Shown piece after piece: positions 3,815 through 58,572 of a stretch of DNA of 59,795 nucleotides. Origin of the DNA: a virus; the IMG/VR virus record IMGVR_UViG_3300030098_003320, positions 1 to 59,795 of that record, one strand, 5' to 3'. The notes beneath the pieces are model-generated. The model was given only the letters and a program-made list of their open reading frames with translations, searched no databases and had not been told where the DNA came from. The translations under genes were made by a program, and so were the position numbers. The stretch's first letter is position 1. Every line of letters starts with the position of its first letter.

Positions 3815-4088
3815 ACTTGAACGAGTTCTCGAACAAGCTGTTGAAGCGTATCTGATCTGTCAGAAAAGAAACACGGCCCGTGGTAAACCCGTAGGCGACC
3901 TTGCCAAAGAATATCCAAACCATTTCAAAAAACTAAAGCAAAACAAGTTTCGTTGGATCGGAAAATCGCCAGATGATATCATCGAAGAGTATCTATCTGG
4001 CCTCGGTCAGCCTCGGGCCAGCTATGTATGGCACGTTTTATGTGATATCGTCGCTAACCGTGCTGAGAGGCGATCTAAGGAAGATTAG
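3798..4088 (+). CDS. Small hypothetical protein, last rightward gene of unit Z
   Basis: 96 residues, hydrophilic, overlapping the preceding gene by 17 nt. No family recognised. It ends only 33 nt before the end of a leftward operon, so two transcription units converge here with almost no spacer. In contrast, the matching junction of unit B (38588-38982) holds about 400 nt of structured non-coding DNA. Confidence 0.5.
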   Translation: MKEPNELERVLEQAVEAYLICQKRNTARGKPVGDLAKEYPNHFKKLKQNKFRWIGKSPDDIIEEYLSGLGQPRASYVWHVLCDIVANRAERRSKED

Positions 4089-14834: not shown

Positions 14835-15038
14835 TTGGACTATCCTGAAAGCACTCCTCTGTGGATTGAGTGCGACCTGTGCGAGCGGATGTGGTGCACG
14901 TTCCATGACTGTCATGTTGATGACTGTCTGTGTCCTGGGGTCACGCAGTTTGTTACGTTTGGGATAGATCCGTACAAGACTGCGAGATCTGACCCAAAGG
15001 TTCTGCTGGCGATAGCAAGTCAATCGGGGACGAGATAG
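14835..15038 (+). CDS. Conserved Cys/His-rich small protein (unit A)
   Basis: 67 residues from a TTG. The core PLWIECDLCERMWCTFHDCH then VDDCLCPGVTQF and TFGIDPY is nearly the same in the protein at 50892-51086. The C-x-x-C, C-x-x-H and C-x-C groups suggest one or two bound zinc ions. The final codons overlap the tmRNA-like element (15026-15100). No named family recognised. Confidence 0.6.
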   Translation: MDYPESTPLWIECDLCERMWCTFHDCHVDDCLCPGVTQFVTFGIDPYKTARSDPKVLLAIASQSGTR

Positions 15039-15100
15039 GTTTCGACACCTCATAGGCGTTGAGCTTGGGGTGGACGCGAGTTCGAGTCTCGCCGTCTCCA
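15026..15100 (+). ncRNA. Minimal tmRNA-like/tRNA-like RNA, 75 nt
   Basis: GGGGACG (15026-15032) pairs with CGTCTCC (15093-15099), with A at the discriminator position. The T-arm is GCGAG-TTCGAGT-CTCGC (15076-15092). The 5' part contains GGTTTCGACA (15038-15047), the sequence signature of the D-like arm of tmRNA, not of ordinary tRNA. The third pair of the acceptor is G-U, the alanine identity pair found in tmRNA. The 43-nt interior cannot hold an mRNA-like domain and shows no normal anticodon arm. It overlaps the stop codon of the gene at 14835. CCA is not encoded. Alternatives are an att-site remnant of host ssrA or a degenerate tRNA. Confidence 0.55.
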
Positions 15101-15140
15101 TAGTTGTTGTGTTGGTCGGATCAAAAACAGGTGCGTAGCC

Positions 15141-15170
15141 CATGACACATGACACGTGTCACGAGTCATG
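15141..15170. promoter_or_regulatory. 30-bp palindrome, probable protein-binding site
   Basis: The two 15-bp halves around the centre GACAC/GTGTC match at 13 of 15 positions, and the inner 12 bp (TGACACGTGTCA) are perfectly symmetric. It is centred 55 bp after the tmRNA-like element. An operator for a dimeric or tetrameric regulator, or part of an origin, is the natural reading. Confidence 0.6.
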
Positions 15171-15187
15171 CTCTAGACACTTTTTTT

Positions 15188-17320: not shown

Positions 17321-18706
17321 ATGGACTTTGCTGCTTCGATTACAAGATTTCGTAAAGATCCGACGTTGTTTGTAACGAACATCCTGAACGCCGATCCTGA
17401 TGAATGGCAGTCCGAGGTTATGGCCGCAGTCGCCAGAGGAGATCGTGGTATCTCGATTCGCTCAGGACACGGCGTTGGAAAAACGAGTTGCTTGTCGTGG
17501 CTCGCTTTGTGGTGGATCAGTTGTCATTACCACGCAAAGGTAGTTATCACAGCACCTACGTCCGCTCAGTTGCACGATGCGCTTTTGCCTGAAGCCAAAG
17601 CGTGGCTAAAACAGTCACCTGACGGTTTTGCGGATATGTTTACCGTGCGAGCAGACAGGATAGAACTTGCGGCTGATCCCGAGCGAAATTTTATATCAGC
17701 TAGAACATCCAGAGCTGAACAGCCCGACGCACTCCAGGGTGTACACGCTGAACACGTTTTGCTGATTTGTGATGAGGCTAGTGGTGTGCCTGAATCGGTA
17801 TACGAAGCTGCTGGTGGTAGCATGAGTGCGCTACACGCATCAATGGTACTGGCTGGAAACCCCGTAAGAAGTTCTGGCTACTTTTACGATACGTTTCACA
17901 AACTGTCAGATCGCTGGACAAACTTTCATGTGTCTTGCGAAAAAACTGCCAGAGTTTCTAATGAATACATCGAAGAGTGCAGACTTCGATACGGTGAAGA
18001 ATCCAACACCTATCGTGTCCGTGTATTAGGGGACTTTCCTAAGGGAGATGATGACACTGTTATCAGCATGGAACTGACTGATGGTGCAATCAATCGAGAC
18101 GTTATACCGACTCAATATAGTTCAATCGTGTGGGGCGTAGACGTAGCACGATTTGGTACTGACGCATCTGCCCTATGCCGTCGCAAAGGAAACGCTGTCA
18201 CGGAACCCGTCAGGCTTTGGCGTGGACTTGATACAATGCAACTGACAGGTGCAATCAAAGCTGAGTATGATACGGCAACAGAAAAGCCAGAAGAAATCTT
18301 TGTTGATGCGATTGGACTAGGTGCTGGTGTCGCGGATCGGCTAAGGGAACTTGGATTGCCCGCCTATGCAATCAATGTTAGTGAAAGCCCTGCGATGGGA
18401 GATACCTACCTGAACCTGCGGGCCGAGCTTTGGTACAAAGCAAAAGCGTGGCTTGAGGGACGCGACGTTCGCTTGCCACGCGACGACAGATTAAAATCTG
18501 AGTTGACTACTTTGCGGTACAACTATACGTCTAGTGGTAAAGTTAAAATCGAATCAAAAGCAGACTTAAAGAAACGAGGTGTCGCCAGCCCTGATGCTGC
18601 TGACGCTTTTGTATTAACATTTGCTTCTGATGCTGGGACGGCGATGGGTGGCCGATCACGCAGAAGGCATGGTAAACTAAAAAGAGATTTAGCAGGAATT
18701 GTCTAG
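17321..18706 (+). CDS. terL: Terminase large subunit (unit A)
   Basis: 461 residues. Walker A is GHGVGKTS (residues 49-56) and Walker B LLICDE (147-152). The coupling segment is MVLAGNPVRSSGYFYDTF. The RNase H-type nuclease domain has acidic residues in WGVDVARFG (D274), FVDAIGLGAG (D329) and SPDAADAF (D425/D428). It cuts concatemers and drives DNA into the procapsid. The protein at 51465-52868 is clearly orthologous. A small-subunit gene is not adjacent; the candidate is at 4974-5489. Confidence 0.95.
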   Translation: MDFAASITRFRKDPTLFVTNILNADPDEWQSEVMAAVARGDRGISIRSGHGVGKTSCLSWLALWWISCHYHAKVVITAPTSAQLHDALLPEAKAWLKQSPDGFADMFTVRADRIELAADPERNFISARTSRAEQPDALQGVHAEHVLLICDEASGVPESVYEAAGGSMSALHASMVLAGNPVRSSGYFYDTFHKLSDRWTNFHVSCEKTARVSNEYIEECRLRYGEESNTYRVRVLGDFPKGDDDTVISMELTDGAINRDVIPTQYSSIVWGVDVARFGTDASALCRRKGNAVTEPVRLWRGLDTMQLTGAIKAEYDTATEKPEEIFVDAIGLGAGVADRLRELGLPAYAINVSESPAMGDTYLNLRAELWYKAKAWLEGRDVRLPRDDRLKSELTTLRYNYTSSGKVKIESKADLKKRGVASPDAADAFVLTFASDAGTAMGGRSRRRHGKLKRDLAGIV

Positions 18707-18853
18707 GGGGTTCGGCTTTTATTGGCGTGATGGCCTGACTTAAATAAACAATATGTCTCCTGTAACCAGGTGTTGCCCCTAGGCATCTTCTGTTGAACAT
18801 TTTATTGCATCGAAGTACGTTCGGAGGGTTCACCCTCAAAAGAGTGGCATGAT
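18707..18853 (+). promoter_or_regulatory. Structured terL-portal intergenic region (unit A)
   Basis: 147 nt without a gene. CTAGGGG at the terL stop codon can pair with CCCCTAG about 70 nt downstream, and a GAGGG-TTCA-CCCTC hairpin lies 18 nt before the portal start. The matching gap in unit B (52869-53037) keeps a GGGGG/CCCCC long-range pairing, a GTGGCCT-AC motif and a similar hairpin although the sequence has changed. A translational or RNA-processing control, or a packaging site, is possible. Confidence 0.4.
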
Positions 18854-20914
18854 TTGGCATACATAGACGAAGCTGAAACCGAAGTTGGTTTGGGCATGAC
18901 CGAAGACGAGTTGCAGGTCGCAGTTCGTCAATATATCGAAGATGCTATTCAGTTTATCGACGATGACATTAGCCCGATCAGGGCCGAGTCTACTCGTTAT
19001 TACAATGGTGAACCTTTTGGTAACGAGGTGGATGGTCGTAGTCAGGTCGTAAGCCGCGATGTCCGCGACAGCGTACAGGCGATGCTTCCGTCGCTAATGC
19101 GTGTGTTTTTTGGCGCAGAAAACATAGTTGACTTTGTGCCGCGTGGACCTGAAGACGTAGCTATGTCCGAACAGGCAACAGATTACGTCAACTACATACT
19201 TCGTGAAGACAATGACGCTATAGGAATATTTTATAGCGTTTTTAAAGATGCGCTTATTAACAAAGGCGGCATCGTTAAGTGGTCGTGGGATGATTCGGTT
19301 GAGGTACATACATACAGCTTTCAGGGGTTAGACGAACCTACCCTTGGGCTTCTCTTGGAAGAGGATGGAGTTGAGGCTGTTTCTGTTGAGGGAGTACCAA
19401 ACCCTAACGTACCACCTGAGCAAGTTCAGATGATGATTGCTCAGGGAATGGAACCGCCCATGATCTACGATGCTGAGATCAAGCGTCAGCGTAGGCGGGA
19501 CAAGGTGCGTGTTGAAACAATGCCACCAGAAAACTTTTTTGTAGATGCTGCTGCGACCAGCCTTGATGACGCACAGGTCGTTGGATCCAGAACGATGGCA
19601 ACCGTCAGCGATCTGGTAGCAATGGGTTATGACAAGGATATGCTCGACAACTACTTGTCTGACGAAGTGGCATTTACAGATAACGATGAATATTGGGCGC
19701 GATATCCAGACAGAAGCGCACCAGGTCCGTTATCAACCTACAATCAACGCAGGGTCTTGTACGTTGAGGCTTATTGCTACGTTGACTACGATGGTGATGG
19801 TTTAGCTGAACTACGCCGTGTGTGTACAGTTGGAAGCAACTACCATGTTGTAAACAACGAGCCTATTAGCAGCATACCGTTTGCAGTCTTTTCATGCGAT
19901 CCAGAGCCTCATGTGTTTTTTGGTTCTGATGTCGCAGATATGACTAAAGACATACAGCGAGTTAAGTCGGCAGTCCTTCGCGGTATGCTCGACTCTTTGT
20001 CTTTTGCGCTATATCCCCGAACAGGAATTGTTGAAGGTCAGGTAGACATTGACGATGTGCTAAATCCTGAAGTCGGGTCAATTATCAGGATGCGGGCACC
20101 AGGCATGGTTCAGCAGTTAAATGTGCCGTTCCTTGGCCGCGAAGCATTTCCAATGATGGAATATCTTGACGGAATGAAAGCGTCAAGAACTGGCGTATCG
20201 GGTGCGTCCCAAGGATTAGATCCTGACGTACTTCAGTCTACGACCCGTGCCGCCGTAAGCGCGACAATGAGGGGTGCAGAACAGCGACTAGAAATGATTG
20301 CTCGCTTGTTTGCAGAAACAGGTTTCAAGCCTTTGTTCAAAGGGTTGCTTCGTTTAATTATTGAAAACCAAGACCAAGAACGAATGGTAAGGTTGCGTAA
20401 CCAGTGGACACCTATAGACCCAAGAGTTTGGGATGCTACGATGGATGTGTCTACAAATGTTGGACTTGGTTCTGGAATGACTGACGAACGGCTTGCGACA
20501 CTTGCTCAAGTTGCCGCTAAACAACAAGAAATTATGCAGCAAATGGGACCAAACAATCCTCTTGTTGGCCTGGGCCAGATTAGAAACACGTTGGCAAAGA
20601 TGCTGGAGATTAACGGCTTTAAGGACTCAAACCAGTTCTTTAATCCGCTACCTATTGATTATCAGCCGCCTCCACCCCCGCCACCGCAACCTACGCCTCA
20701 AGAACAGCTAATGCAGGTGCAGATGGCTGACATCCAGGCGCGGACTGCTATCGACCAGCAAAAATTGCAGCTTGACGCGACGAAAGCAGAAATGCTTAAC
20801 GAGCGTGAAACAACGAGAATCGCTGGCGACTTAGCATTGCGAGAAAAGAAATTTGAAGACGATGTTGACCTTGAGATTGTTCGTGGCGCGATAAAGGAAG
20901 AAACAGGTGGATAA
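18854..20914 (+). CDS. Portal protein, P22/epsilon15-like (unit A)
   Basis: 686 residues from a TTG (MAYIDEAETEVGLGM), supported by the GTG-started orthologue at 53038-55101. Typical segments are RDVRDSVQAMLPSLMRVFFG near residue 70, VKWSWDDSVEVHTYSF, VETMPPENFFVD, EAYCYVDYDGDGLAELRR and MTKDIQRVKSAVLRGMLDS. A Pro-rich stretch (PPPPPPPQP) and a Gln-rich helix end the protein. It forms the dodecameric ring at one vertex through which DNA is packed. It overlaps the next gene by 8 nt. Confidence 0.93.
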   Translation: MAYIDEAETEVGLGMTEDELQVAVRQYIEDAIQFIDDDISPIRAESTRYYNGEPFGNEVDGRSQVVSRDVRDSVQAMLPSLMRVFFGAENIVDFVPRGPEDVAMSEQATDYVNYILREDNDAIGIFYSVFKDALINKGGIVKWSWDDSVEVHTYSFQGLDEPTLGLLLEEDGVEAVSVEGVPNPNVPPEQVQMMIAQGMEPPMIYDAEIKRQRRRDKVRVETMPPENFFVDAAATSLDDAQVVGSRTMATVSDLVAMGYDKDMLDNYLSDEVAFTDNDEYWARYPDRSAPGPLSTYNQRRVLYVEAYCYVDYDGDGLAELRRVCTVGSNYHVVNNEPISSIPFAVFSCDPEPHVFFGSDVADMTKDIQRVKSAVLRGMLDSLSFALYPRTGIVEGQVDIDDVLNPEVGSIIRMRAPGMVQQLNVPFLGREAFPMMEYLDGMKASRTGVSGASQGLDPDVLQSTTRAAVSATMRGAEQRLEMIARLFAETGFKPLFKGLLRLIIENQDQERMVRLRNQWTPIDPRVWDATMDVSTNVGLGSGMTDERLATLAQVAAKQQEIMQQMGPNNPLVGLGQIRNTLAKMLEINGFKDSNQFFNPLPIDYQPPPPPPPQPTPQEQLMQVQMADIQARTAIDQQKLQLDATKAEMLNERETTRIAGDLALREKKFEDDVDLEIVRGAIKEETGG

Positions 20915-21176
20915 TCTGTCGCCAGAACAGAAAGGACGAAGGGCAAAAGAAATCCTTGAAGATGAAGTGTTTCTTGACGTTCTTGAAAAAGTTAGACAAA
21001 ACATTATTGCACAATGGACACTTACAGACGTAAATGATGTAGGTGTTCGAGAAAGTTTATATATGCAAGGCAGGGGCCTTGATGAGATTGTGCGAGGACT
21101 CCGCACCTTAGTAGGTGATTGGGCTGTGGAGCAGTCTCGCAAAGTTTCAAAATCCAATAGAGGAAGAAAATCGTGA
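20907..21176 (+). CDS. Small helical structural-operon protein (unit A)
   Basis: 89 residues. LSPEQKGRRAKEILEDEVFL at the N-terminus and GRGLDEIVRGLRTLVGDWAV near the end are conserved in 55278-55550. Fully helical. Its place between portal and scaffold, with 8-nt and 4-nt overlaps, suggests a small assembly or head-completion protein. No family name recognised. Confidence 0.6.
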   Translation: MDNLSPEQKGRRAKEILEDEVFLDVLEKVRQNIIAQWTLTDVNDVGVRESLYMQGRGLDEIVRGLRTLVGDWAVEQSRKVSKSNRGRKS

Positions 21177-22216
21177 GCGAAGCTACAGTCACCAACCCAG
21201 CAGGGACGGAAGTCTCTCAAGGGAGTGAGCGCAGACGCACGAATAGTGAAATCCAAGCAGGATTAGCTGAAATGCTTCGGGCTGATTATGTGCAGCCTGA
21301 AGAGCAAGCGCAGGACGAGTTTCAGCAAGTCGTCGAAGAACACGATGACACTGAACTCGAAGACGGCTACGAAGAAGAGGCCGTCGAGTCTGAGTTTTAT
21401 GAGGACTCAGATGAAGTGGATGAGATGGACGAGGAGACTGAAGGTGAACAATCCGAAAGCGAGAGTGCATCCTACCGTGTCATAGTAGACGGCAAAGAGA
21501 TGCAAGTCCCGCTTGACGAACTCATATCAGGCTACCAGCGGGGATCGTCATTCACACAGAAGAGTCAAGCATTAGCAGATGAACGCAGAGAGTTTGAGGC
21601 TAATGCTATGGCTGTTCAGCAGGAGCGTGAGTCGTACGCGACCGTGCTCCAGCAACTTCGACAGCAAATGGATGCTGCAACGCAACCGAACGTTGATTGG
21701 GACCGCTTGGAAAGGGAGAACCCCGTTCAATGGCTAAAGCTCAAAGAACTTGAGCGAGATCGGCAAGCACACATCCAGGCAGTACATGAAGAACAAGTTC
21801 GTATGCAACAACTTTTAGAGCAGGACAACGCTACAAGATTGCAATCACAACTTGAATCTGAACGTGCTTTGGTGTTGGAGAAAATCCCTGAGTGGTCCGA
21901 TAGTGAGGTTCAAAACCATGAACAAAGGCAGTTGATAAACTTTGGTTTATCTCTTGGTTTTAATGAAGATGAACTAAGTAACATCTACGATCACAGAGCA
22001 TTGATAGCTTTGCGTGATGCGTGGAGATACAACGAGCTTGTGAATGGCAAGAAAATCAAATCGGTCAAATCGAAAATCAAAAACGCAAAACCTGGCGGCA
22101 AACAAGTGAGCCGACAGATGCGTAGTCGTAAGGCAAAAGCCCAAAGAGCAAGGCTGAAGCAAACTGGAAAGGTTGAAGATGCTGCGTCTTTGTTGGGTGC
22201 AATACTTACGCAATAA
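21173..22216 (+). CDS. Scaffolding protein (unit A)
   Basis: 347 residues. The N-terminal third is very acidic (runs such as EDGYEEEAVESEFYED), followed by YRVIVDGKEMQVPLDELISG, a motif common to phage scaffolds. A long Gln/Glu/Arg coiled coil and a basic C-terminal tail (RSRKAKAQRARLKQTGKVED) that can bind the coat protein complete it. The gene lies directly before the capsid gene, as expected. The counterpart is 55547-56542. Confidence 0.85.
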   Translation: MSEATVTNPAGTEVSQGSERRRTNSEIQAGLAEMLRADYVQPEEQAQDEFQQVVEEHDDTELEDGYEEEAVESEFYEDSDEVDEMDEETEGEQSESESASYRVIVDGKEMQVPLDELISGYQRGSSFTQKSQALADERREFEANAMAVQQERESYATVLQQLRQQMDAATQPNVDWDRLERENPVQWLKLKELERDRQAHIQAVHEEQVRMQQLLEQDNATRLQSQLESERALVLEKIPEWSDSEVQNHEQRQLINFGLSLGFNEDELSNIYDHRALIALRDAWRYNELVNGKKIKSVKSKIKNAKPGGKQVSRQMRSRKAKAQRARLKQTGKVEDAASLLGAILTQ

Positions 22217-22234
22217 CTTTAGGAAACTTTTACT

Positions 22235-23242
22235 ATGGCAGTCGTAACGAACACCTTTTTGACGTATGACGCAAAAGGGTTACGGGAGGACTTGTCGGAT
22301 CTGATTTCCGATATCAGTCCTACGCAGACTCCGTTCCAGAGCAACATTGGGACGCGAGATGCAGAAGCAACATATTTTGAGTGGCAGACAGATGCACTTG
22401 CCGCCGCTTCAGCAACACCCGTTGTTGAAGGTGAAGATCTGAGCAGCTTTACCGCAGTTACCCCGACCGCTCGCATGGGGAACTACTGCCAGATCAACAT
22501 GGTCGATTTCATCATTTCAGGAACGGAGCAGACCGTCCTGAAGGCTGGTCGGGCATCTGAAGTTGGTTATCAAGCAGCTAAAGCAGCTAAGGAACTAAAG
22601 CGTAATGTTGAGGTTGCTTGCTTGCTAAACGGTGTTGGTGCCGTTGCTGGTGCCACGGGAACCGCTCGCGTAACTGCTGGGTTCCCTGGCTGGATTAAAA
22701 CCAACGAAACTTCTACCAACGTAACCAAGCCTTCCTACACGGGTTCAACCCCAACAGGTGCGGCTCAGGTGTGGAAGTCTTTCGGTACGCCTACTGCGTT
22801 TACCGAAGCTATGCTTAAGACCACGATGCAGGAGTGCTTTAACAGCGGTGGTGAGCCGTCGATGCTGATGGTTTCTCCGTTTAACAAGACACAGGTAAGT
22901 GGTTTCAGCGGGATTGCCTCTAGCCGCTACAACGTAGACGGTGCAGAGCCTTCCGTGATTATCGGAGCAGCTGACATTTATGTTAGCGACTTTGGTAATT
23001 TAAGCGTTGTTCCAAATCGGTTCTTTACCACGGTAGAGGATGAGGGTGCTGGTTCGCTGCACAACGATTGGGCGTTGTTGATTGACCCTGATGAGGTCAA
23101 GCTGGCTACGCTTCGTCCGTACAGCATTGAGGCTCTCGCCAAGACGGGAGATGCTGATAAGCGTATGGCGTTAATCGAGTGGGGGCTTCAGGTCAGCAAC
23201 GAAGCTGCTCACGGTGTTGTTGCTGGTATTACCGCAGCATAA
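22235..23242 (+). CDS. Major capsid protein, SU10/DUF5309 family (unit A)
   Basis: 335 residues. MAVVTNTFLTYDAKGLREDL, then TPFQSNIG, FEWQTD and YQAAKAAKELKRNVE are diagnostic of the SU10-type major capsid group with the HK97 fold. It makes the icosahedral shell. It is about 90 percent identical by eye to the product of 56561-57571 and is the best conserved protein between the units. An 86-bp block (22970-23055) is identical in DNA to 57296-57381. Confidence 0.94.
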   Translation: MAVVTNTFLTYDAKGLREDLSDLISDISPTQTPFQSNIGTRDAEATYFEWQTDALAAASATPVVEGEDLSSFTAVTPTARMGNYCQINMVDFIISGTEQTVLKAGRASEVGYQAAKAAKELKRNVEVACLLNGVGAVAGATGTARVTAGFPGWIKTNETSTNVTKPSYTGSTPTGAAQVWKSFGTPTAFTEAMLKTTMQECFNSGGEPSMLMVSPFNKTQVSGFSGIASSRYNVDGAEPSVIIGAADIYVSDFGNLSVVPNRFFTTVEDEGAGSLHNDWALLIDPDEVKLATLRPYSIEALAKTGDADKRMALIEWGLQVSNEAAHGVVAGITAA

Positions 23243-23260
23243 ACCAATTAAAAACCTGGA

Positions 23261-23286
23261 GGGGTGGGGGCTTCGGCCCTCGCCCC
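23261..23286 (+). terminator. GC-rich hairpin after the capsid gene (unit A)
   Basis: GGGGTGGGGGC-TTCG-GCCCTCGCCCC forms a stable stem with a UUCG tetraloop, 18 nt after the capsid stop codon. There is no T-run, so it may stabilise the abundant capsid mRNA or attenuate read-through. A different hairpin occupies the same place in unit B (57577-57608). Confidence 0.5.
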
Positions 23287-23301
23287 GATAGGCGGGAACC
23301 A

Positions 23302-23616
23302 ATGAAAAAAATACTTGATTACGACCCGATAACTAAAACGACTCAATGGTTTCATTATGACGAGTCTACAAACCAGTATGGTTTAGAGACTAAGCAGGAT
23401 GTTACCCATATTGTTCAAGCGAACAAACGTCAGTTTAATCAAGTAGATGAACGTGCAAGTTGGAAAGGCGACCAGCACCATGTCGCTTCAATACCAATGA
23501 GTGTTTATCACCAATTAGCAAAAATTTCTAACAATTTTAAGGATCAAAAAGTAATCAAGAAGTGGCTGAACGATCCTGACAACAAGGTGTTTAGAACACG
23601 ACCTGGGAAAGTCTGA
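23302..23616 (+). CDS. Conserved small head protein (unit A)
   Basis: 104 residues from the ATG at 23302, the length of its homologue at 57626-57940. WFHYDESTNQYGLETKQD, then ERASWKGDQHHVASIPMSVY and KKWLNDPDNKVFRTRPGKV are almost unchanged between units. The strong conservation and the position between capsid and adaptor suggest a head-decoration or head-completion protein. A longer frame upstream overlaps the hairpin and has no support. Confidence 0.65.
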   Translation: MKKILDYDPITKTTQWFHYDESTNQYGLETKQDVTHIVQANKRQFNQVDERASWKGDQHHVASIPMSVYHQLAKISNNFKDQKVIKKWLNDPDNKVFRTRPGKV

Positions 23617-24248
23617 TGGCAATTTCGACATATGCAGAGTTGCAGACCGCAACGGCAAATTGGCTAGACAGAACAGACCTTTCGTCACGAATCCCTGAGT
23701 TTATTGACCTAGCGGAAGCGACATTTAACAGAACGATCCGCAACCACAGAATGATTACGAAAAATGATTCGTATTCATTAGGTGCTCGTTACGTCAACTT
23801 GCCTACTGACACGCTTGAGATCATTAGGATTGTATTAGATACAAGCCCTGTCATTACGCTAGAATACTTAACGCCAGAAGAAATAGCAGAACGGCGTATG
23901 GGCCTGTCTAGTACAGGCAAGCCAATATACTTCACGGTTGTCGGTGGTAGCACAAATCAGATAGAGCTTCTGCGTTCACCAGACGAAACGTACACATCGT
24001 CGATTGTCTATTACACCAAAATCCCTGCACTTAGCGATTCTGCTACAACGAATTGGCTGCTAACTAACCATCCAGATATATACTTGTTTGGCACATTGGT
24101 AGAGGCAGAGCCATATTTAAAAAACGATGAGCGTATGCCTATGTGGAGTGCTAGGTTGAGTAAGGCGTTAGAAGAATTGAAACTTCAAAGTGAAAGAGAG
24201 ATGCACACAGGGTCGTCTTTACGGATGCGATCAAGGGTACTTGGATAA
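23616..24248 (+). CDS. Head-tail adaptor protein, SU10-like (unit A)
   Basis: 210 residues. TANWLDRTDLSSRIPEFIDL, AEATFNRTIR, then LPTDTLEIIRI, and YYTKIPALSDSATTNWLLTN with LFGTLVEAEPYLKND are typical of the phage adaptor that sits under the portal. It is helical at both ends with a beta-rich middle. Orthologue at 57940-58572, nearly the same in length and sequence. It overlaps the upstream stop by 1 nt. Confidence 0.85.
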   Translation: MAISTYAELQTATANWLDRTDLSSRIPEFIDLAEATFNRTIRNHRMITKNDSYSLGARYVNLPTDTLEIIRIVLDTSPVITLEYLTPEEIAERRMGLSSTGKPIYFTVVGGSTNQIELLRSPDETYTSSIVYYTKIPALSDSATTNWLLTNHPDIYLFGTLVEAEPYLKNDERMPMWSARLSKALEELKLQSEREMHTGSSLRMRSRVLG

Positions 24249-50891: not shown

Positions 50892-51086
50892 ATGTCGAAA
50901 TCAACGGAGCATTCAAAGCAAGATCCGTTGTGGGTCATATGTGACCTGTGCGAAGACCTGTGGTGTACGCTTCACGGTTCCCATGTTGCGGACTGCTTGT
51001 GTCCAGGGATCGAGGAGTTTGCTACGTTTGGTGTAGACCCTTACACAATGCCAGGAGAAGATTGCCATGCCGTATCGGGTTCGTGA
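50892..51086 (+). CDS. Conserved Cys/His-rich small protein (unit B)
   Basis: 64 residues. DPLWVICDLCEDLWCTLHGS, HVADCLCPGIEEFATFGVDP repeat the core of the protein at 14835-15038 with all Cys and His kept. Likely zinc binding. Its last codons overlap the start of the next small gene; there is no tmRNA-like element here. Confidence 0.6.
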   Translation: MSKSTEHSKQDPLWVICDLCEDLWCTLHGSHVADCLCPGIEEFATFGVDPYTMPGEDCHAVSGS

Positions 51087-51464: not shown

Positions 51465-52868
51465 ATGTCTTCGTTTATTGCGCCCGATCTTGTTAGAGAC
51501 ATTGAAACAATGCGGGCAGATCCCGCAATTTTTGTTAGAGATATGCTGGGTGCAGAGCCAGATGTTTGGCAGCTAGAGGTTATGGCCGCTGCCGCTAAAC
51601 AAACTCGAGGGATTAGTATTCGATCGGGTCACGGTGTAGGAAAGACCAGTTGTTTATCCTGGCTGGCCTTGTGGTTTATTTTTGTTCATTATCACGCCAA
51701 GGTCATTGTTACAGCACCTACGTCTGCTCAGTTGCACGATGCGTTGCTTCCTGAAACAAAAGCGTGGTTAAAGCAAGGGCCTACAGCGTTTCAAAAATTA
51801 TTTAATGTCAAATCTGACCGCATAGAATTAGCTGCCGACCCCGAACGCAATTTTATATCTGCTAAAACATCTAGAGCTGAACAGCCCGATGCACTCCAGG
51901 GTGTACACGCAGAGCACGTCATGCTCATCTGTGACGAAGCCAGCGGTGTGCCGGAACAAGTGTACGAGTCGGCTGGTGGCTCAATGTCTGCTCATCACGC
52001 GACAATGGTACTAGCGGGCAACCCCGTCCGCTCATCGGGATACTTTTACGACACGTTTAATAAACTAGAAGATCGGTGGGAAACATTTCACATATCATGT
52101 GAAGACACCGCTCGAGTATCGAAAGAATACATTGAAGAATGCAGGATTCGGTATGGTGAAGACTCTAACACTTACCGCGTTCGTGTACTCGGAGAGTTTC
52201 CCAAGGGTGATGACGACACAGTCATTCCGCATGAATTGGTTGCAGAAGCGATTAGCCGCGACATTCAACCGTCGTCGTTTGGCCCAACTGTGTGGGGAGT
52301 GGACGTTGCTCGTTTTGGTGCCGACGCCTCTGCGTTATGCAAACGCAAAGGCAACGCTGTAACCGAGCCAATACGATTGTGGCGAAACCTGGACACAATG
52401 CAGCTAACGGGTGCCATCAAGGCAGAATACGATATTGCATCAGAAAAACCTGTAGAAATTTTTGTAGATGCAATCGGACTTGGCGCTGGTGTCGCAGACC
52501 GTTTGCGCGAACTGGGTTTGCCAGCCTACGCAATCAACGTCAGCGAAAGCCCCGCGATGGGCAACCACTACTTGAACCTTCGCGCCGAGCTGTGGTACAA
52601 AGCAAAAGGATGGCTTGAAGGGCGCGATGTTCGCTTACCTTCCGACAATCGCCTAAAGTCTGAGTTGACCACCGTTCGCTACAATTTCACTTCCGGCGGC
52701 AGGGTTAAGATAGAATCTAAGGCTGATTTAAAACGACGAGGCGTAGCGTCTCCCGACGCAGCAGACGCTTTCGTTCTAACCTTTGCGTCTGACGCTGGCA
52801 CAGCTATGGGTAGACGGTCGGGTAAACATATGGGTAGTATTAAGAGGAACCTTGCAGGTATCGTGTAG
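51465..52868 (+). CDS. terL: Terminase large subunit (unit B)
   Basis: 467 residues. Walker A GHGVGKTS, Walker B MLICDE, coupling LAGNPVRSSGYFYDTF, nuclease acids in WGVDVARFGADAS, FVDAIGLGAG and SPDAADAF. Close orthologue of 17321-18706, with most changes in the first 30 residues and in the 250-265 loop. Drives DNA packaging. Confidence 0.95.
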   Translation: MSSFIAPDLVRDIETMRADPAIFVRDMLGAEPDVWQLEVMAAAAKQTRGISIRSGHGVGKTSCLSWLALWFIFVHYHAKVIVTAPTSAQLHDALLPETKAWLKQGPTAFQKLFNVKSDRIELAADPERNFISAKTSRAEQPDALQGVHAEHVMLICDEASGVPEQVYESAGGSMSAHHATMVLAGNPVRSSGYFYDTFNKLEDRWETFHISCEDTARVSKEYIEECRIRYGEDSNTYRVRVLGEFPKGDDDTVIPHELVAEAISRDIQPSSFGPTVWGVDVARFGADASALCKRKGNAVTEPIRLWRNLDTMQLTGAIKAEYDIASEKPVEIFVDAIGLGAGVADRLRELGLPAYAINVSESPAMGNHYLNLRAELWYKAKGWLEGRDVRLPSDNRLKSELTTVRYNFTSGGRVKIESKADLKRRGVASPDAADAFVLTFASDAGTAMGRRSGKHMGSIKRNLAGIV

Positions 52869-53037
52869 TGTCTATTATTTAATGTTGAATAGATAGATGC
52901 GTTGGGGGGTAGCCCTGACTAAGCTTGGTGGCCTAACAGAGTTACTTAAATGACCAAAACTTGCGCTTCGTTTCTCCTCCCGAGACGAGGGTGCCCCCAG
53001 CCCATCAATCTGATGTGGCATAGATGAGAGGAACTTC
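52869..53037 (+). promoter_or_regulatory. Structured terL-portal intergenic region (unit B)
   Basis: 169 nt without a gene. GGGGGG near 52905 can pair with CCCCC near 52993, enclosing a GGTGGCCTAAC motif and TTAAATGA, both shared with unit A. CCTC/GAGG forms a hairpin close to the portal start. The order of landmarks is as in 18707-18853. Confidence 0.4.
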
Positions 53038-55101
53038 GTGGCATACATAGACGAAGCAGAAACCGAAGCTGGTGTAGGGATGGATGAGGACGAACTACAA
53101 ACAGTCGTCAGCGCCTATATATCAGATGCCATTCAGTACATCGACGATGACATTAGCCCTGTCCGGGCAGAATCTACTCGATACTACCGTGGCGACCCGT
53201 TTGGCAATGAGGTAGAAGGTCGCAGCCAGGTCGTAAGTCGCGATGTGCGTGATTCCGTGCAAGCTGTCTTGCCGTCAATGATGCGCGTGTTTTTTGGTTC
53301 GGAAAAAGTTGTAGAGTTTGTGCCACGCACCGAGTCCGATGTAGCAATGGCTGAACAGGCTACAGACTACTTGAACTACATCTTGCGCCAGGACAACGAC
53401 GCAATCTCAATTTTTTATAGCGTGTTTAAAGACGCGCTAATGAACAAAGGCGGTTTTGTTAAGTGGTGGTGGGATGACAGCGTTGAGGTACATACCCACA
53501 GCTTTGAAGGTTTAGACGAAGGCTCGCTTGGGTTGCTCCTAGAAGAAGATGGCGTAGAAGCCGTGTCTGTTGAATCTGTTCCAGCGCCTGGAATTACGGA
53601 TGAGCAGATTGCCATGATGGAAGCGCAGGGTATGCCTGTGCCTCAAATCTATAATGTTGAGATTAAACGCCGTCGCAAAAAGAACCAGGTGCGCGTTGAA
53701 ACAATGCCGCCCGAGGAATTTTTTGTGGATGCCGCTGCGACAAGTCTTGATGACGCTATGGTCGTCGGGCACCGCACGATGTCTACCGTCTCCGACCTAG
53801 TTGCTCTAGGCTACGATCGGGATATGCTCGAAGAATACTTGTCTGACGAATTTGCGTTTACCGATAGCGACGAGTATTTGGCGCGGTACGCAGGAACGGA
53901 GATTCCCGATCCCGTATCTGCCTACGAGCGTCGGCGCGTGCTTTATGTTGAGGCGTGGTGCTACGTCGATTATGACGGTGATGGCATCGCAGAGCTGAGG
54001 CGCGTATGCACGGTCGGCAACAACTACACGGTAGTAAACAACGAACCAGCAGACACAATTCCGTTTACAATGTTTAGTTGTGATCCCGAACCTCATGTCT
54101 TCTTTGGTTCAGACATAGCGGATATGACAAAAGACATACAACGAGTGAAAAGCGCGGTGTTGCGCGGTATGCTCGACTCTTTGTCTTTTGCGCTTTATCC
54201 GCGCACAGGCGTTGTCGAAGGAATGGTAGATATTGACGATGTGTTGAACCCCGAAGTTGGTTCGATTATTCGGATGCGTCAGCCAGGAATGGTGCAACAG
54301 TTGAATGTGCCATTCTTAGGAAAAGAAGCGTTTCCAATGATGCAGTATTTGGATGCAATGAAAGAATCGCGTACAGGCCAAACAGCGGCGTCTCAGGGAT
54401 TAGACCCCGACGTACTACAGTCCACAACACGCGCCGCTGTTACTGCAACGATTAAGGGTGCTGAGCAACATCTCGAAATGATGGCAAGACTTTTTGCTGA
54501 CAGCTTTAAGAGAATGTTCAAAGGTATGTTGCGTTTAGTAGTAACGCATCAAGACCGGGAACGGATGGTCCGACTAAGGGACCAGTGGGTGCCGATCGAC
54601 CCGCGTGTATGGGACTCAACAATGGATTGTTCTGTTAATGTCGGTCTTGGTTCGGGTGCGACCGACGAGCGCCTTATGGTGCTGAACCAAGTAGCGTCCC
54701 GTCAGCAAGAGGCGATGGAAAAGCTAGGGCCTAACAATCCGCTGGTTGGTTTAGGCCAAATCAGAAACACGCTGGCTAAGATGTTGGAGATTAGCGGCTA
54801 CCCAGACTCGACGCAGTTTTTTAAGCAAATACCACTGGACTATCAGCCTCCCCCACCGCCGCCGCCTAAACCATCACCAGAAGAATTACTGGCACAGGCG
54901 CAGATGGCTGACATCCAAGCTCGTACTGCAATCGACCAGCAAAAGCTTCAGCTTGATGCTATGAAGCAGCAGCAGCTTGATGAACGCGAAAGCGCACGAA
55001 TCGCTGGCGACTTGGCAATCCGGGAATTCCAAGCGGAAGAAAAGTTTCAGAATGATGTAGACATGGAAGTCTTAAAGGCTAGTCTCAAGCAGGGTTTGTA
55101 A
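53038..55101 (+). CDS. Portal protein (unit B)
   Basis: 687 residues from a GTG (MAYIDEAETEAGVGM). RDVRDSVQAVLPSMMRVFFG, VETMPPEEFFVDAAATSLDD, EAWCYVDYDGDGIAELRRVC and MTKDIQRVKSAVLRGMLDS are shared with unit A; the Pro-rich linker and Gln-rich helix at the end are kept. P22/epsilon15-type ring protein. It overlaps the next gene by 1 nt. Confidence 0.93.
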   Translation: MAYIDEAETEAGVGMDEDELQTVVSAYISDAIQYIDDDISPVRAESTRYYRGDPFGNEVEGRSQVVSRDVRDSVQAVLPSMMRVFFGSEKVVEFVPRTESDVAMAEQATDYLNYILRQDNDAISIFYSVFKDALMNKGGFVKWWWDDSVEVHTHSFEGLDEGSLGLLLEEDGVEAVSVESVPAPGITDEQIAMMEAQGMPVPQIYNVEIKRRRKKNQVRVETMPPEEFFVDAAATSLDDAMVVGHRTMSTVSDLVALGYDRDMLEEYLSDEFAFTDSDEYLARYAGTEIPDPVSAYERRRVLYVEAWCYVDYDGDGIAELRRVCTVGNNYTVVNNEPADTIPFTMFSCDPEPHVFFGSDIADMTKDIQRVKSAVLRGMLDSLSFALYPRTGVVEGMVDIDDVLNPEVGSIIRMRQPGMVQQLNVPFLGKEAFPMMQYLDAMKESRTGQTAASQGLDPDVLQSTTRAAVTATIKGAEQHLEMMARLFADSFKRMFKGMLRLVVTHQDRERMVRLRDQWVPIDPRVWDSTMDCSVNVGLGSGATDERLMVLNQVASRQQEAMEKLGPNNPLVGLGQIRNTLAKMLEISGYPDSTQFFKQIPLDYQPPPPPPPKPSPEELLAQAQMADIQARTAIDQQKLQLDAMKQQQLDERESARIAGDLAIREFQAEEKFQNDVDMEVLKASLKQGL

Positions 55102-55274
55102 TGCGAAAACCTAACAATACACAACAGCCCTTAACAAAACGGCAAACAGAAGCTTTGGCTCGCCACAAACGACATCATTCTAAAGTTCACATGAGTATAA
55201 TGAAGCAGCTAATGAGAAAAGGCGTTTCATTTACAGACGCTCATAATGTTGCCATGAATCGGGTAGGAAGGTAA
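55101..55274 (+). CDS. Conserved small His/Lys-rich phage protein, 57 residues
   Basis: MRKPNNTQQPLTKRQTEALA, RHKRHHSKVHMSIMKQLMRK and GVSFTDAHNVAMNRVGR. The pattern L-T-x-R-Q...A-L-x-x-H-x-x-H-H-(S/T)-x-x-H-M...G-x-S/T-F-x-x-A-H is one I know from many marine and T7-like phage genomes, function unknown. TAATG overlap with the portal gene. Absent from unit A, where the portal gene overlaps the next gene directly. Confidence 0.7.
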   Translation: MRKPNNTQQPLTKRQTEALARHKRHHSKVHMSIMKQLMRKGVSFTDAHNVAMNRVGR

Positions 55275-55277
55275 CGC

Positions 55278-55550
55278 TTGCAAATAGAATTGACGCAAGA
55301 GCAAAAAGCCCGTCGCGCTCAAGAAATTTTGGACGATCCGGTCTTTGTCGAGGTCGTTAACGAAAGCCGTAATCTGATAATGGCTGAGTGGAATTTGACG
55401 GCTTACGACCAAAGCGAAAAACGAGAAAGCCTGTATTATCAAGGCCGCGCACTTGACGAAATGTTAAGAGGCTTGCGATCCTTGATAGATAATTGGATTG
55501 TACATAAGTCAAAACAGCAAAAAGCTACCAAAAAAGGAAAGATTAAATGA
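55278..55550 (+). CDS. Small helical structural-operon protein (unit B)
   Basis: 90 residues from a TTG. LTQEQKARRAQEILDDPVFV then GRALDEMLRGLRSLIDNWIV match 20907-21176. Between portal and scaffold as in unit A. Probably an assembly factor; no family name recognised. Confidence 0.6.
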   Translation: MQIELTQEQKARRAQEILDDPVFVEVVNESRNLIMAEWNLTAYDQSEKRESLYYQGRALDEMLRGLRSLIDNWIVHKSKQQKATKKGKIK

Positions 55551-56542
55551 GTGATACCGGAACTGTAGAACGAGCTGGTAGACGCTCTCACGGCGAAATC
55601 GAAAACGCTTTTGCCAATATGCTCGTCGGACCCGAAGAACAACCAGAAGAAGATTCCTCGATAGAGGAGCAACCTTTGATGGACTCTGAGGATGAAGGGC
55701 AGGAGTTAGATGCTGAGTTGGCCGATGACTCAGTAGTGGATGAGCAGGACGAGTATGATGCAGAGGATGAACAACTCTCTGATGGCGCTCAGACGTACAC
55801 AGTCACAATTGACGGTACGCCAGAAGAGGTGCCTTTAGACGAACTCATTGCTGGATATTCTCGACACTCAGCATTCACAAAAAAGAGTCAAGAATTAGCT
55901 GAACAACGCGAGACGTTTCACGCGGAACAGCAGACTCTAAGGCAGACGTACCATCAATATAACGAGGTACTAAGCCAACTTCAGCAACAGATGGAAGCAG
56001 CAAATCAGCCGACGAACTTGGACTGGGATGCGCTTGAAAGGCAAGATCCGGTGCAATGGCTAAAATTGAAAGAGCTAGAGCGGCAACGTGCTAGTGAAAT
56101 CGAAGCTGTAATGGCTGAACGCCAAAGAATGCAAGCAGTAATGGAGCGAGAACAATCGCAAAAGCTGCAAGAGCATTTAGCGGTTCAGCAAAGTTTGATG
56201 CTGGAAAAAATTCCTGAGTGGGCCGACAGTGATGTTCAAGCCGAAGAACAACGGAAGTTGGTGGAGTTTGGTAAACAGGTTGGGTTTTCTGACCAGGAGC
56301 TGGACACGCTATACGACCATAGAGCGTTAATTGTTTTGCGTGACGCAATGCGATACAACGAGCTAACAAACGGCGAAAAGATCACAGAAGCCAAAAGTAA
56401 AATCGGTAGTGCAAAAGGCGGCAGTAAACGGACTGCTCGTCGGACGCGCTCCCGCAAGCAGAAGGCTCAAAGACAAAAGCTGCGGAAAACTGGTAAGGTT
56501 GAAGACGCGGCTTCGTTAATGGGTCAGATTCTTGCGGACTAA
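55547..56542 (+). CDS. Scaffolding protein (unit B)
   Basis: 331 residues. Acidic front third, then YTVTIDGTPEEVPLDELIAG, a Gln/Glu/Arg coiled coil and a basic tail (RSRKQKAQRQKLRKTGKVED) as in unit A. Directly before the capsid gene. Templates procapsid assembly and is then lost. Confidence 0.85.
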   Translation: MSDTGTVERAGRRSHGEIENAFANMLVGPEEQPEEDSSIEEQPLMDSEDEGQELDAELADDSVVDEQDEYDAEDEQLSDGAQTYTVTIDGTPEEVPLDELIAGYSRHSAFTKKSQELAEQRETFHAEQQTLRQTYHQYNEVLSQLQQQMEAANQPTNLDWDALERQDPVQWLKLKELERQRASEIEAVMAERQRMQAVMEREQSQKLQEHLAVQQSLMLEKIPEWADSDVQAEEQRKLVEFGKQVGFSDQELDTLYDHRALIVLRDAMRYNELTNGEKITEAKSKIGSAKGGSKRTARRTRSRKQKAQRQKLRKTGKVEDAASLMGQILAD

Positions 56543-56560
56543 CCCTGAGACAATAGAATC

Positions 56561-57571
56561 ATGGCAGTTGTAACAAACACTTTTCTCACCTACGATGCCA
56601 AAGGCATCCGTGAGGATCTGAGCGATCTGATCGCGGACATTAGTCCGACTCAGACTCCGTTTCAGAGCAACATCGGAACGCGAGATGCGTCCAACACTTA
56701 TTTTGAGTGGCAGACAGACTCGCTTGCGACGGCTTCAGCAACGCCCGTCGTAGAAGGTCAGGATCTCAGTAGCTTTACCGCAGTAACGCCAACGGCGCGT
56801 ATGGGTAACTACTGCCAGATCAATATGCGCGATTTCATCATATCGGGCACAGAACAGCGTGTAGACAAGGCTGGTCGGGCATCTGAAGTTGGATACCAGG
56901 CAGCTAAAGCAGCCAAAGAGCTAAAGCGTGATGTTGAAGTCGCTTGCTTGCTTAATGGCGTAGGCGCTGTCGCGGGTGCTACGGCTACGGCCCGTGTAAC
57001 CGCTGGATTCCCTGGTTGGATCAAAACCAACGAAACTTCCACCAACGTAACCAAGCCTTCCTACACGGGTTCAACCCCGACAGGTGCGGCTCAGGTGTGG
57101 AAGTCGTTTGGTACACCAACTGCGTTTACTGAGGCTATGCTCAAGACCACGATGCAAGAATGCTTTGTGTCAGGTGGCGAGCCGTCGATGCTAATGGTTT
57201 CCCCGTACAACAAGACTGTTGTTAGTGGGTTCAGTGGTATCGCTTCAAGCCGCTACAACGTAGACGGTGCCGAGCCTTCGGTAATTATTGGAGCGGCTGA
57301 CATTTATGTTAGCGACTTTGGTAATTTAAGCGTTGTTCCAAATCGGTTCTTTACCACGGTAGAGGATGAGGGTGCTGGTTCACTAATGAACGACTGGGCG
57401 CTGCTCATCGACACCGATGAGGTGAAGCTCGCAACCTTGCGGCCTTACAGCATTGAGGCTCTTGCAAGAACGGGTGATGCAGACAAGAGAATGGCTTTAA
57501 TCGAGTGGGGGCTTCAGGTTAACAACGAAGCTGCTCACGGGATTGTTGCCGGAATCACGGCTGCGGCGTAA
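56561..57571 (+). CDS. Major capsid protein, SU10/DUF5309 family (unit B)
   Basis: 336 residues. Very similar to 22235-23242, from MAVVTNTFLTYDAKGIREDL to the last helix AAHGIVAGITAAA. Parts of the DNA are identical over tens of bases (the longest 57296-57381), while third-codon positions elsewhere differ freely. Recent exchange in this gene is likely. Confidence 0.94.
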   Translation: MAVVTNTFLTYDAKGIREDLSDLIADISPTQTPFQSNIGTRDASNTYFEWQTDSLATASATPVVEGQDLSSFTAVTPTARMGNYCQINMRDFIISGTEQRVDKAGRASEVGYQAAKAAKELKRDVEVACLLNGVGAVAGATATARVTAGFPGWIKTNETSTNVTKPSYTGSTPTGAAQVWKSFGTPTAFTEAMLKTTMQECFVSGGEPSMLMVSPYNKTVVSGFSGIASSRYNVDGAEPSVIIGAADIYVSDFGNLSVVPNRFFTTVEDEGAGSLMNDWALLIDTDEVKLATLRPYSIEALARTGDADKRMALIEWGLQVNNEAAHGIVAGITAAA

Positions 57572-57576
57572 TCTTC

Positions 57577-57608
57577 TGGTGGGGCAGGGGGCAACTCCTG
57601 TCCCACCA
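57577..57608 (+). terminator. Hairpin after the capsid gene (unit B)
   Basis: TGGTGGG with CCCACCA, extended inside by CAGG/CCTG, forms a strong stem 6 nt after the capsid stop codon. No T-run. It replaces the UUCG hairpin found at this place in unit A, so the structure is conserved but the sequence is not. Confidence 0.5.
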
Positions 57609-57625
57609 TTAGGTTTGCTATATCC

Positions 57626-57940
57626 ATGAAGCGAATACTCGACTACGATCCAGAAACCAAGACTACACAATGGTTTCATTACGATGACTCTACCGGAAAT
57701 TACGGACTAGAGACTCGTCAGGATATTACCCATATCGTAGAGGCTAATAAGACTCAGTTCAGACAAGTGGACGAGCGGGCTAACTGGAAAGGCGATCAGC
57801 ACCATGTCGCGTCGATTCCAATGAGTATTTATCACGAATTGGCAAAAGTATCGAACAATTTCAAGGATCAAAAAGCTATAAAAAAATGGCTGAACGATCC
57901 TGACAACCGCGTGTTCCGAACACGGCCTGGGAGAGTCTGA
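57626..57940 (+). CDS. Conserved small head protein (unit B)
   Basis: 104 residues. WFHYDDSTGNYGLETRQDIT, ERANWKGDQHHVASIPMSIY, KKWLNDPDNRVFRTRPGRV. Nearly identical to 23302-23616 in length and sequence. Possibly a head decoration or completion protein. Confidence 0.65.
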   Translation: MKRILDYDPETKTTQWFHYDDSTGNYGLETRQDITHIVEANKTQFRQVDERANWKGDQHHVASIPMSIYHELAKVSNNFKDQKAIKKWLNDPDNRVFRTRPGRV

Positions 57941-58572
57941 TGGCGATTACAACCTATGCACAGCTAAAGACTGCGACTGCAAATTGGTTGGATCGAACAG
58001 ACCTGACAGATCGGATACCTGAGTTTATTGAGCTGGCTGAAGCAAGTTTTAACAGAACAATTCGCCAACCCGATATGGTAACGAAAAACGATTCGTATTC
58101 GATCGCAGCTCGGTACACGACATTACCGACTGACACGTTAGAAATTACCAGAATAGTGCTGGATTCATCGCCAGTTATTACGCTTGAATACCTGACGCCA
58201 GAAGAGATTGCCGAGAGACGGGCTGACATGAATAGTACGGGTCGGCCCGTTTACTTTACGGTTATAGGAGGATCGAGTAACCAGTTAGAGGTTCTTCCAT
58301 CCCCTGACGAGACGTACACATCATCTATTGTGTACTACACAAAAATTCCTGCGCTAACGGATTCAGCAACAACAAACTGGCTTTTAACCAACCATCCAGA
58401 TATCTATTTATTTGGCACTTTGGTAGAAGCAGAGCCGTACCTAAAGAATGATGAACGAGTGGCTTTGTGGTCTACAAGACTAGATGCGTCACTAGGTGCG
58501 CTTCGTTTGCAAGGTGAGCGTCAGATGCACACAGGATCATCGCTTCGCATGAGATCAAGACCGCTGGGGTAG
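57940..58572 (+). CDS. Head-tail adaptor protein, SU10-like (unit B)
   Basis: 210 residues, orthologue of 23616-24248. TANWLDRTDLTDRIPEFIEL, LPTDTLEITRIVLDSSPVIT and TNWLLTNHPDIYLFGTLVEA are conserved. Joins the portal to the tail. One-base overlap with the upstream stop codon. Confidence 0.85.
   Translation: MAITTYAQLKTATANWLDRTDLTDRIPEFIELAEASFNRTIRQPDMVTKNDSYSIAARYTTLPTDTLEITRIVLDSSPVITLEYLTPEEIAERRADMNSTGRPVYFTVIGGSSNQLEVLPSPDETYTSSIVYYTKIPALTDSATTNWLLTNHPDIYLFGTLVEAEPYLKNDERVALWSTRLDASLGALRLQGERQMHTGSSLRMRSRPLG

Follow-up and report, generated by a model that had tools for sequence, protein, structure and literature searches.

A predicted phage tmRNA reduced to its tRNA-like domain represents a large viral family with conserved alanine identity

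In the IMG/VR virus record IMGVR_UViG_3300030098_003320 (positions 1 to 59,795; all 59,795 nucleotides are hereafter referred to as the window), a gene at 15026-15100 is predicted to encode a phage transfer-messenger RNA (tmRNA) reduced to its tRNA-like domain (TLD), which we call a mini-tmRNA. A cmscan search of the window returned a single significant RNA, a match to the Rfam tmRNA family RF00023 at 15026-15103 on the plus strand with 62.2 bits (E 6e-22; Rfam cut-off 47). The alignment spanned model positions 1-374 and included both ends of the model, with ~310 middle positions absent; tmRNA scored above tRNA in the Rfam clan comparison. An original prediction made from the letters of the sequence alone had described a tRNA-like domain standing alone in 75 nucleotides (nt), with a GGGGACG/CGTCTCC acceptor carrying a G-U third pair, a T arm with a TTCGAGT loop and a tmRNA-type D-like element GGTTTCGAC. 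All of these elements are present (Table 1), and the covariance-model search that it had proposed decided for tmRNA over tRNA. The predicted fold (-31.2 kcal/mol, z -2.5) consists of the acceptor, a T stem and a 7-bp P2-like stem with an inner hairpin, the last being a feature absent from the original prediction.

The third-pair G·U of the acceptor is a signal for alanyl-tRNA synthetase (AlaRS), and in cryo-electron microscopy structures SmpB contacts G19, C18, U17 and A334 of E. coli tmRNA (PMC8363625). The window RNA carries G3-U70 plus equivalents of all four contact bases. With bacterial tmRNA (ssrA, RF00023) it shares the G3-U70 acceptor, the D-like loop UCGAC, GGAC, the T arm and the 3' A; it differs in having no mRNA-like domain, tag frame or pseudoknots and in its length (75 vs ~360 nt). 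The spacing from UUCGAC to GGAC is only 25 bases, and no resume codon or tag stop was found either. A full tagging tmRNA was ruled out by the missing tag frame. An ordinary tRNA was also ruled out: the RNA has a P2-like stem with a hairpin instead of a D stem and anticodon arm, ARAGORN called neither a tRNA nor a tmRNA in the window, and tRNA is outscored by tmRNA. The silence of ARAGORN on tmRNA is expected, because the program needs a tag frame. A permuted two-piece tmRNA was rejected because the 5' and 3' TLD halves join through P2 and not at the acceptor ends.

Table 1. Coordinates of the mini-tmRNA gene, its parts and the adjacent open reading frame (ORF) in the window.
Feature	Position	Strand	Basis
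TLD-only (mini) tmRNA gene (predicted), mature G1 to A73, 75 nt, CCA not encoded	15026..15100	+	RF00023 62.2 bits; family of 122 sequences
Acceptor stem 5' strand GGGGACG, G3 paired with U70	15026..15032	+	sequence, RF00023, family
D-like loop GGTTTCGAC, G13-C21, without D stem; U17, C18 and G19 are SmpB-contact positions in E. coli tmRNA	15038..15046	+	family conservation; PMC8363625
P2-like stem (ACCTC start, GGGGT end) and inner hairpin, replacing mRNA-like domain and pseudoknots	15047..15071	+	fold; family covariation
GGAC; its A is the equivalent of E. coli A334 (SmpB Trp122 contact), as counted from the 3' end	15072..15075	+	sequence; PMC8363625
T arm GCGAG-TTCGAGT-CTCGC	15076..15092	+	sequence, RF00023, fold
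Acceptor stem 3' strand CGTCTCC (U70; 15093-15099) and discriminator A73 (15100)	15093..15100	+	sequence, RF00023, family
Small Cys-rich ORF, 67 aa (CDLCExxWCT...HVxDCLCPG...TFGxDPY), directly upstream, 13-base overlap with the RNA; not part of the RNA	14835..15038	+	no Pfam match

Homologues in related phages, which the original prediction had proposed to look for, proved abundant. Scan 1 required UUCGAC followed 12-42 nt later by GGAC, together with a portion of the T arm; its pattern left the acceptor out, and it gave at least 119 matches in viral contigs. A script then checked these matches for correct spacing of a 7-bp acceptor and for pairing in the T stem. A tmRNA-type acceptor was present in 113 of the 119 viral matches listed vs 9 of 120 matches to the same pattern in bacterial genomes; since the acceptor lay outside the search pattern, its presence in the listed viral matches indicates a viral family beyond chance. 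Scan 2, built on a different core, gave 63 matches in viral contigs, 41 of them genuine, and recapture between the two scans put the number of contigs for the scan 1 pattern alone at ~300, a rough figure. Scan 3, whose pattern included neither the D loop nor the acceptor, returned mini-tmRNAs in 64 of 64 matches. Under a strict filter, all scans together yielded at least 180 viral records, including a few duplicates of one phage (BRock, for example), and 122 unique sequences; RF00023 scored above its cut-off in 38 of 40 family records. By these sequence searches the mini-tmRNA family is large and diverse among phages. One bacterial-genome match (L268, ~3972-4021) comes from a Prochlorococcus single-cell genome, on a contig of 130,604 bases, and the same RNA occurs in the viral collection on a record of equal length (L104, 3956-4036). 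Because cyanobacterial tmRNA is permuted and two-piece (PMC9004378), the one-piece Prochlorococcus RNA is not a simple deletion of the host gene. Separately, one viral contig (L099, 2693-3045) carries a full-length tmRNA (353 nt, 118 bits), and at two other loci ARAGORN called full-length tmRNAs with unlikely tags overlapping a mini-tmRNA (L070, 5905-6228; L323, 2476-3101), which are probably false.

The alanine identity pair is kept throughout the family. G1-C72, G2-C71, G3-U70, A73, U17, G19 and A20 were each found in 122 of 122 unique sequences, and the SmpB-contact bases U17, C18 and G19 in 121-122 of 122; the original prediction had singled out G3-U70 as the alanine identity element of tmRNA and tRNA-Ala. 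Acceptor pairs 4-6 take all four Watson-Crick types within the family, which implies that pair 3 had time to change. Among the scan 3 unique sequences, G3-U70 was present in 41 of 42 and the UCGAC core in 39 of 42; the sole exception to G3-U70 (L025) is a 3-base deletion of another member's sequence (L005). In a 16-sequence alignment, 94.6% of cells were paired, the covariation score was 0.736 vs 0.179 for shuffled controls, and all eight P2 pairs varied on both sides. In 105 unique sequences, P2 pairs 1-4 were paired in 94-99% vs 41-52% after shuffling, with all pair types represented, and most family members have an inner hairpin within P2. The whole-family pair counts were made on script-anchored segments; the window RNA has a longer linker, so model R1 set its acceptor two bases off.

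Mini-tmRNAs were also found in cultured Streptomyces phages. GiJojo, LuckySocke, pSt2308, BRock and Shaeky each carry one within a tRNA cluster, at 57-65 bits by Rfam. None is annotated as RNA: nothing is annotated beneath it in four of the phages, and a hypothetical ORF is in GiJojo. In GiJojo, LuckySocke, pSt2308 and BRock the mini-tmRNA is the next RNA after the same tRNA-Val, and comparison of BRock (GGGTTTG/CAAATCC) with GiJojo (GGGTCTG/CAGATCC) reveals a compensated acceptor change. When the window RNA by itself served as a BLASTN query against cultured phages, most matches were tRNAs and ssrA-like 3' ends; the Streptomyces phages were reached only with joined queries built from family members.

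The window RNA is followed downstream by terminase, portal and tail genes. Terminase, portal, scaffold and capsid genes are duplicated in the window (17321-24248 and 51465-58572, ~34 kb apart, 51-94% protein identity), and the contig is probably composed of two related phage genomes, as an assembly chimera or a concatemer. In a separate contig from nearly the same phage (L081, 98.9%), the RNA is contiguous with the same terminase as in the first unit of the window, and a contig with an 89% identical terminase protein (L131) retains the 3' part of the RNA at its end. The Cys-rich ORF upstream of the RNA has a homologue at 50892-51086 with no RNA behind it. A perfect palindrome, TGACACGTGTCA, lies at 15150-15187, ~50 bases past the RNA, with a run of seven T 20 bases further; it is possibly an operator or terminator, although a consensus scan called neither it nor any convincing promoter or terminator beside the RNA gene. 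In other phages the mini-tmRNA is sometimes near capsid or portal genes, and in 7 mini groups (21 contigs, including L098 and L361) an HK97-type major capsid gene of the same orientation follows ~200 bases downstream. Where a tRNA is a neighbour, it shares the strand of the mini-tmRNA in 148 of 149 cases. Across the family loci, no one conserved neighbour accounts for the RNA.

We consider the chances somewhat better than even that the RNA is charged with alanine, that host SmpB and EF-Tu bind it, and that it acts as a dominant-negative decoy in competition with host tmRNA. In the proposed pathway, host RNases and the CCA-adding enzyme would mature the mini-tmRNA, host AlaRS would load it with alanine, and host SmpB and EF-Tu would bind the charged form; the complex would then compete with host tmRNA for SmpB and stalled ribosomes. 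Trans-translation could not finish on the mini-tmRNA because it has no resume codon, and tagging and proteolysis of nascent proteins would therefore be lowered during infection. Host SmpB would have to serve, since a search of 40 phage records, of which many were partial, turned up no SmpB. The strictness of G3-U70 suggests that the charged form matters, with EF-Tu delivery to ribosomes, beyond the soaking up of SmpB. The original prediction had likewise proposed an RNA that could be charged with alanine and bind SmpB or EF-Tu without a template. The invariant G3-U70 and A73, the SmpB-contact bases, the covarying stems, the missing tag frame and the wide phage family are all consistent with such an RNA. 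According to PMC4131195 and PMC11915505, which cite Mao et al. 2009, a TLD-only RNA from Mycobacterium phage DS6A inhibits tmRNA in E. coli, and a similar molecule is described as inhibitory whether chargeable or not, perhaps by SmpB titration (PMC4131195). More tentatively, and at somewhat under even chances, we propose that this is a large, old and diverse phage RNA family acting in the ribosome, alanine-charged and carried by SmpB and EF-Tu, that makes trans-translation tagless or dead-end.

Several points weigh against an alanine-charged inhibitor. Because the uncharged form is reported to inhibit as well, inhibition alone leaves the invariant G3-U70 unexplained. The gene also appears dispensable: two relatives (L127 and L128) keep both flanks without the RNA, only the first genome unit of the window has it, and a copy at the same place as those in the Streptomyces phages, in Alone3 (L378, ~1485-1564), has mismatches in the T stem and P2, is not recognised by Rfam and seems to be decaying. 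Judged by this pattern of presence and absence among relatives and units, the RNA is a labile cassette situated close to where the late genes begin. Finally, UUCGAC or GGAC was fixed in some of the searches, so their conservation is independent only in scan 3, and there only for UCGAC.

A beneficial role in the ribosome is an alternative that we regard as unlikely. The charged RNA with SmpB would enter stalled ribosomes, take the nascent chain and help to free ribosomes and non-stop mRNA without a degradation tag, so that ribosomes are kept running and the phage's own truncated proteins are spared. Such rescue has been proposed for the frame-less tmRNAs of mitochondria, some of which retain a tmRNA without a coding sequence (CDS) together with SmpB (PMC11915505), and it would accommodate both the invariant alanine identity and the copies in structural-gene regions, such as those before the HK97-type capsid gene. 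A route for peptide release is hard to see, however, without a resume or stop codon, and the effect reported for the DS6A RNA in the sources cited above is inhibition. Still less probable are roles outside ribosome rescue: the RNA might act as a decoy for host nucleases or tRNA-targeting defences, supply alanyl-RNA for uses other than translation, or mark phage mRNAs for processing by RNase P/Z. Host defences that cut tRNA tails are known, such as Cas12a3 (PMC12851939), and some copies do lie within phage tRNA clusters, but around most copies (116 of 148) there is no tRNA closer than 1.5 kb. The SmpB-contact bases U17 and G19 should be superfluous to all of these roles, yet both are kept, and a processing signal would not need G3-U70.

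Phage integration into ssrA is well known, and a stretch resembling the ssrA 3' end occurs in some phage records (H1-H7; one annotated SsrA). The RNA might then have no function, being the remnant of an attachment site or a host tmRNA copy in decay, the former having been raised in the original prediction. We find this highly improbable. Such remnants hold the 3' part only, whereas here both TLD halves are present and paired in one molecule, and the family covariation is strong. No tyrosine integrase was found in the window, in which serine integrases were not searched for. The comparison with ssrA of candidate hosts that the original prediction had suggested covered 658 sampled gamma- and alphaproteobacterial genomes, the host of the window phage not being identified, and neither half of the RNA had an exact match in them; three of these genomes matched in part (at best over 29 bases with 93% identity or 50 bases with 80%), in all cases within ordinary full-length ssrA. 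Streptomyces ssrA also has an acceptor and T stem unlike those of the copies in Streptomyces phages.

The closest known relative is the TLD-only tmRNA of DS6A (tmID 11587), which, by its descriptions in PMC4131195 and PMC11915505, is likewise phage-borne and little more than a TLD. It is there a single phage case, whereas the 75-nt window RNA belongs to a large family whose members share a covarying P2 stem, in most cases with an inner hairpin. Frame-less mitochondrial tmRNAs (RF02544) and the ~65 bp plastid tmRNAs of Mallomonadaceae are also tmRNA-derived and tagless; they differ in being organellar, and mitochondrial genes are usually permuted, whereas the window gene is one piece in standard order (PMC11915505). 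Full-length ssrA genes are borne by the mycobacteriophages Bxz1 and Wildcat (PMC4131195) and, in two pieces, by the marine phage Melnitz (PMC9004378); these tmRNAs retain the message part, and those of Melnitz and other phages were detected by ARAGORN. The 2025 tmRNA database holds 9 standard-order CDS-less sequences, plastid examples included, among 97,179 (PMC11915505). The TLD-only kind of phage tmRNA is thus already known, from the one phage DS6A in the descriptions cited; the size and diversity of the family and its strict alanine identity appear to be new. No earlier report of a phage family of TLD-only tmRNAs was found in the literature searched, which was mostly non-subscription, and one may exist.

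TLD-only tmRNAs, formerly near-curiosities, thus occur in at least 180 viral records and are not recognised as such by ARAGORN. The absolute conservation of the alanine pair suggests that phages need the charged RNA, which bears on how trans-translation is blocked or diverted, and the cultured Streptomyces phages that carry the gene make direct testing possible. Phages may use the mini-tmRNA to obstruct or redirect the way in which the host frees its stalled ribosomes; if so, the family would represent a widespread RNA-based takeover of host ribosome rescue.
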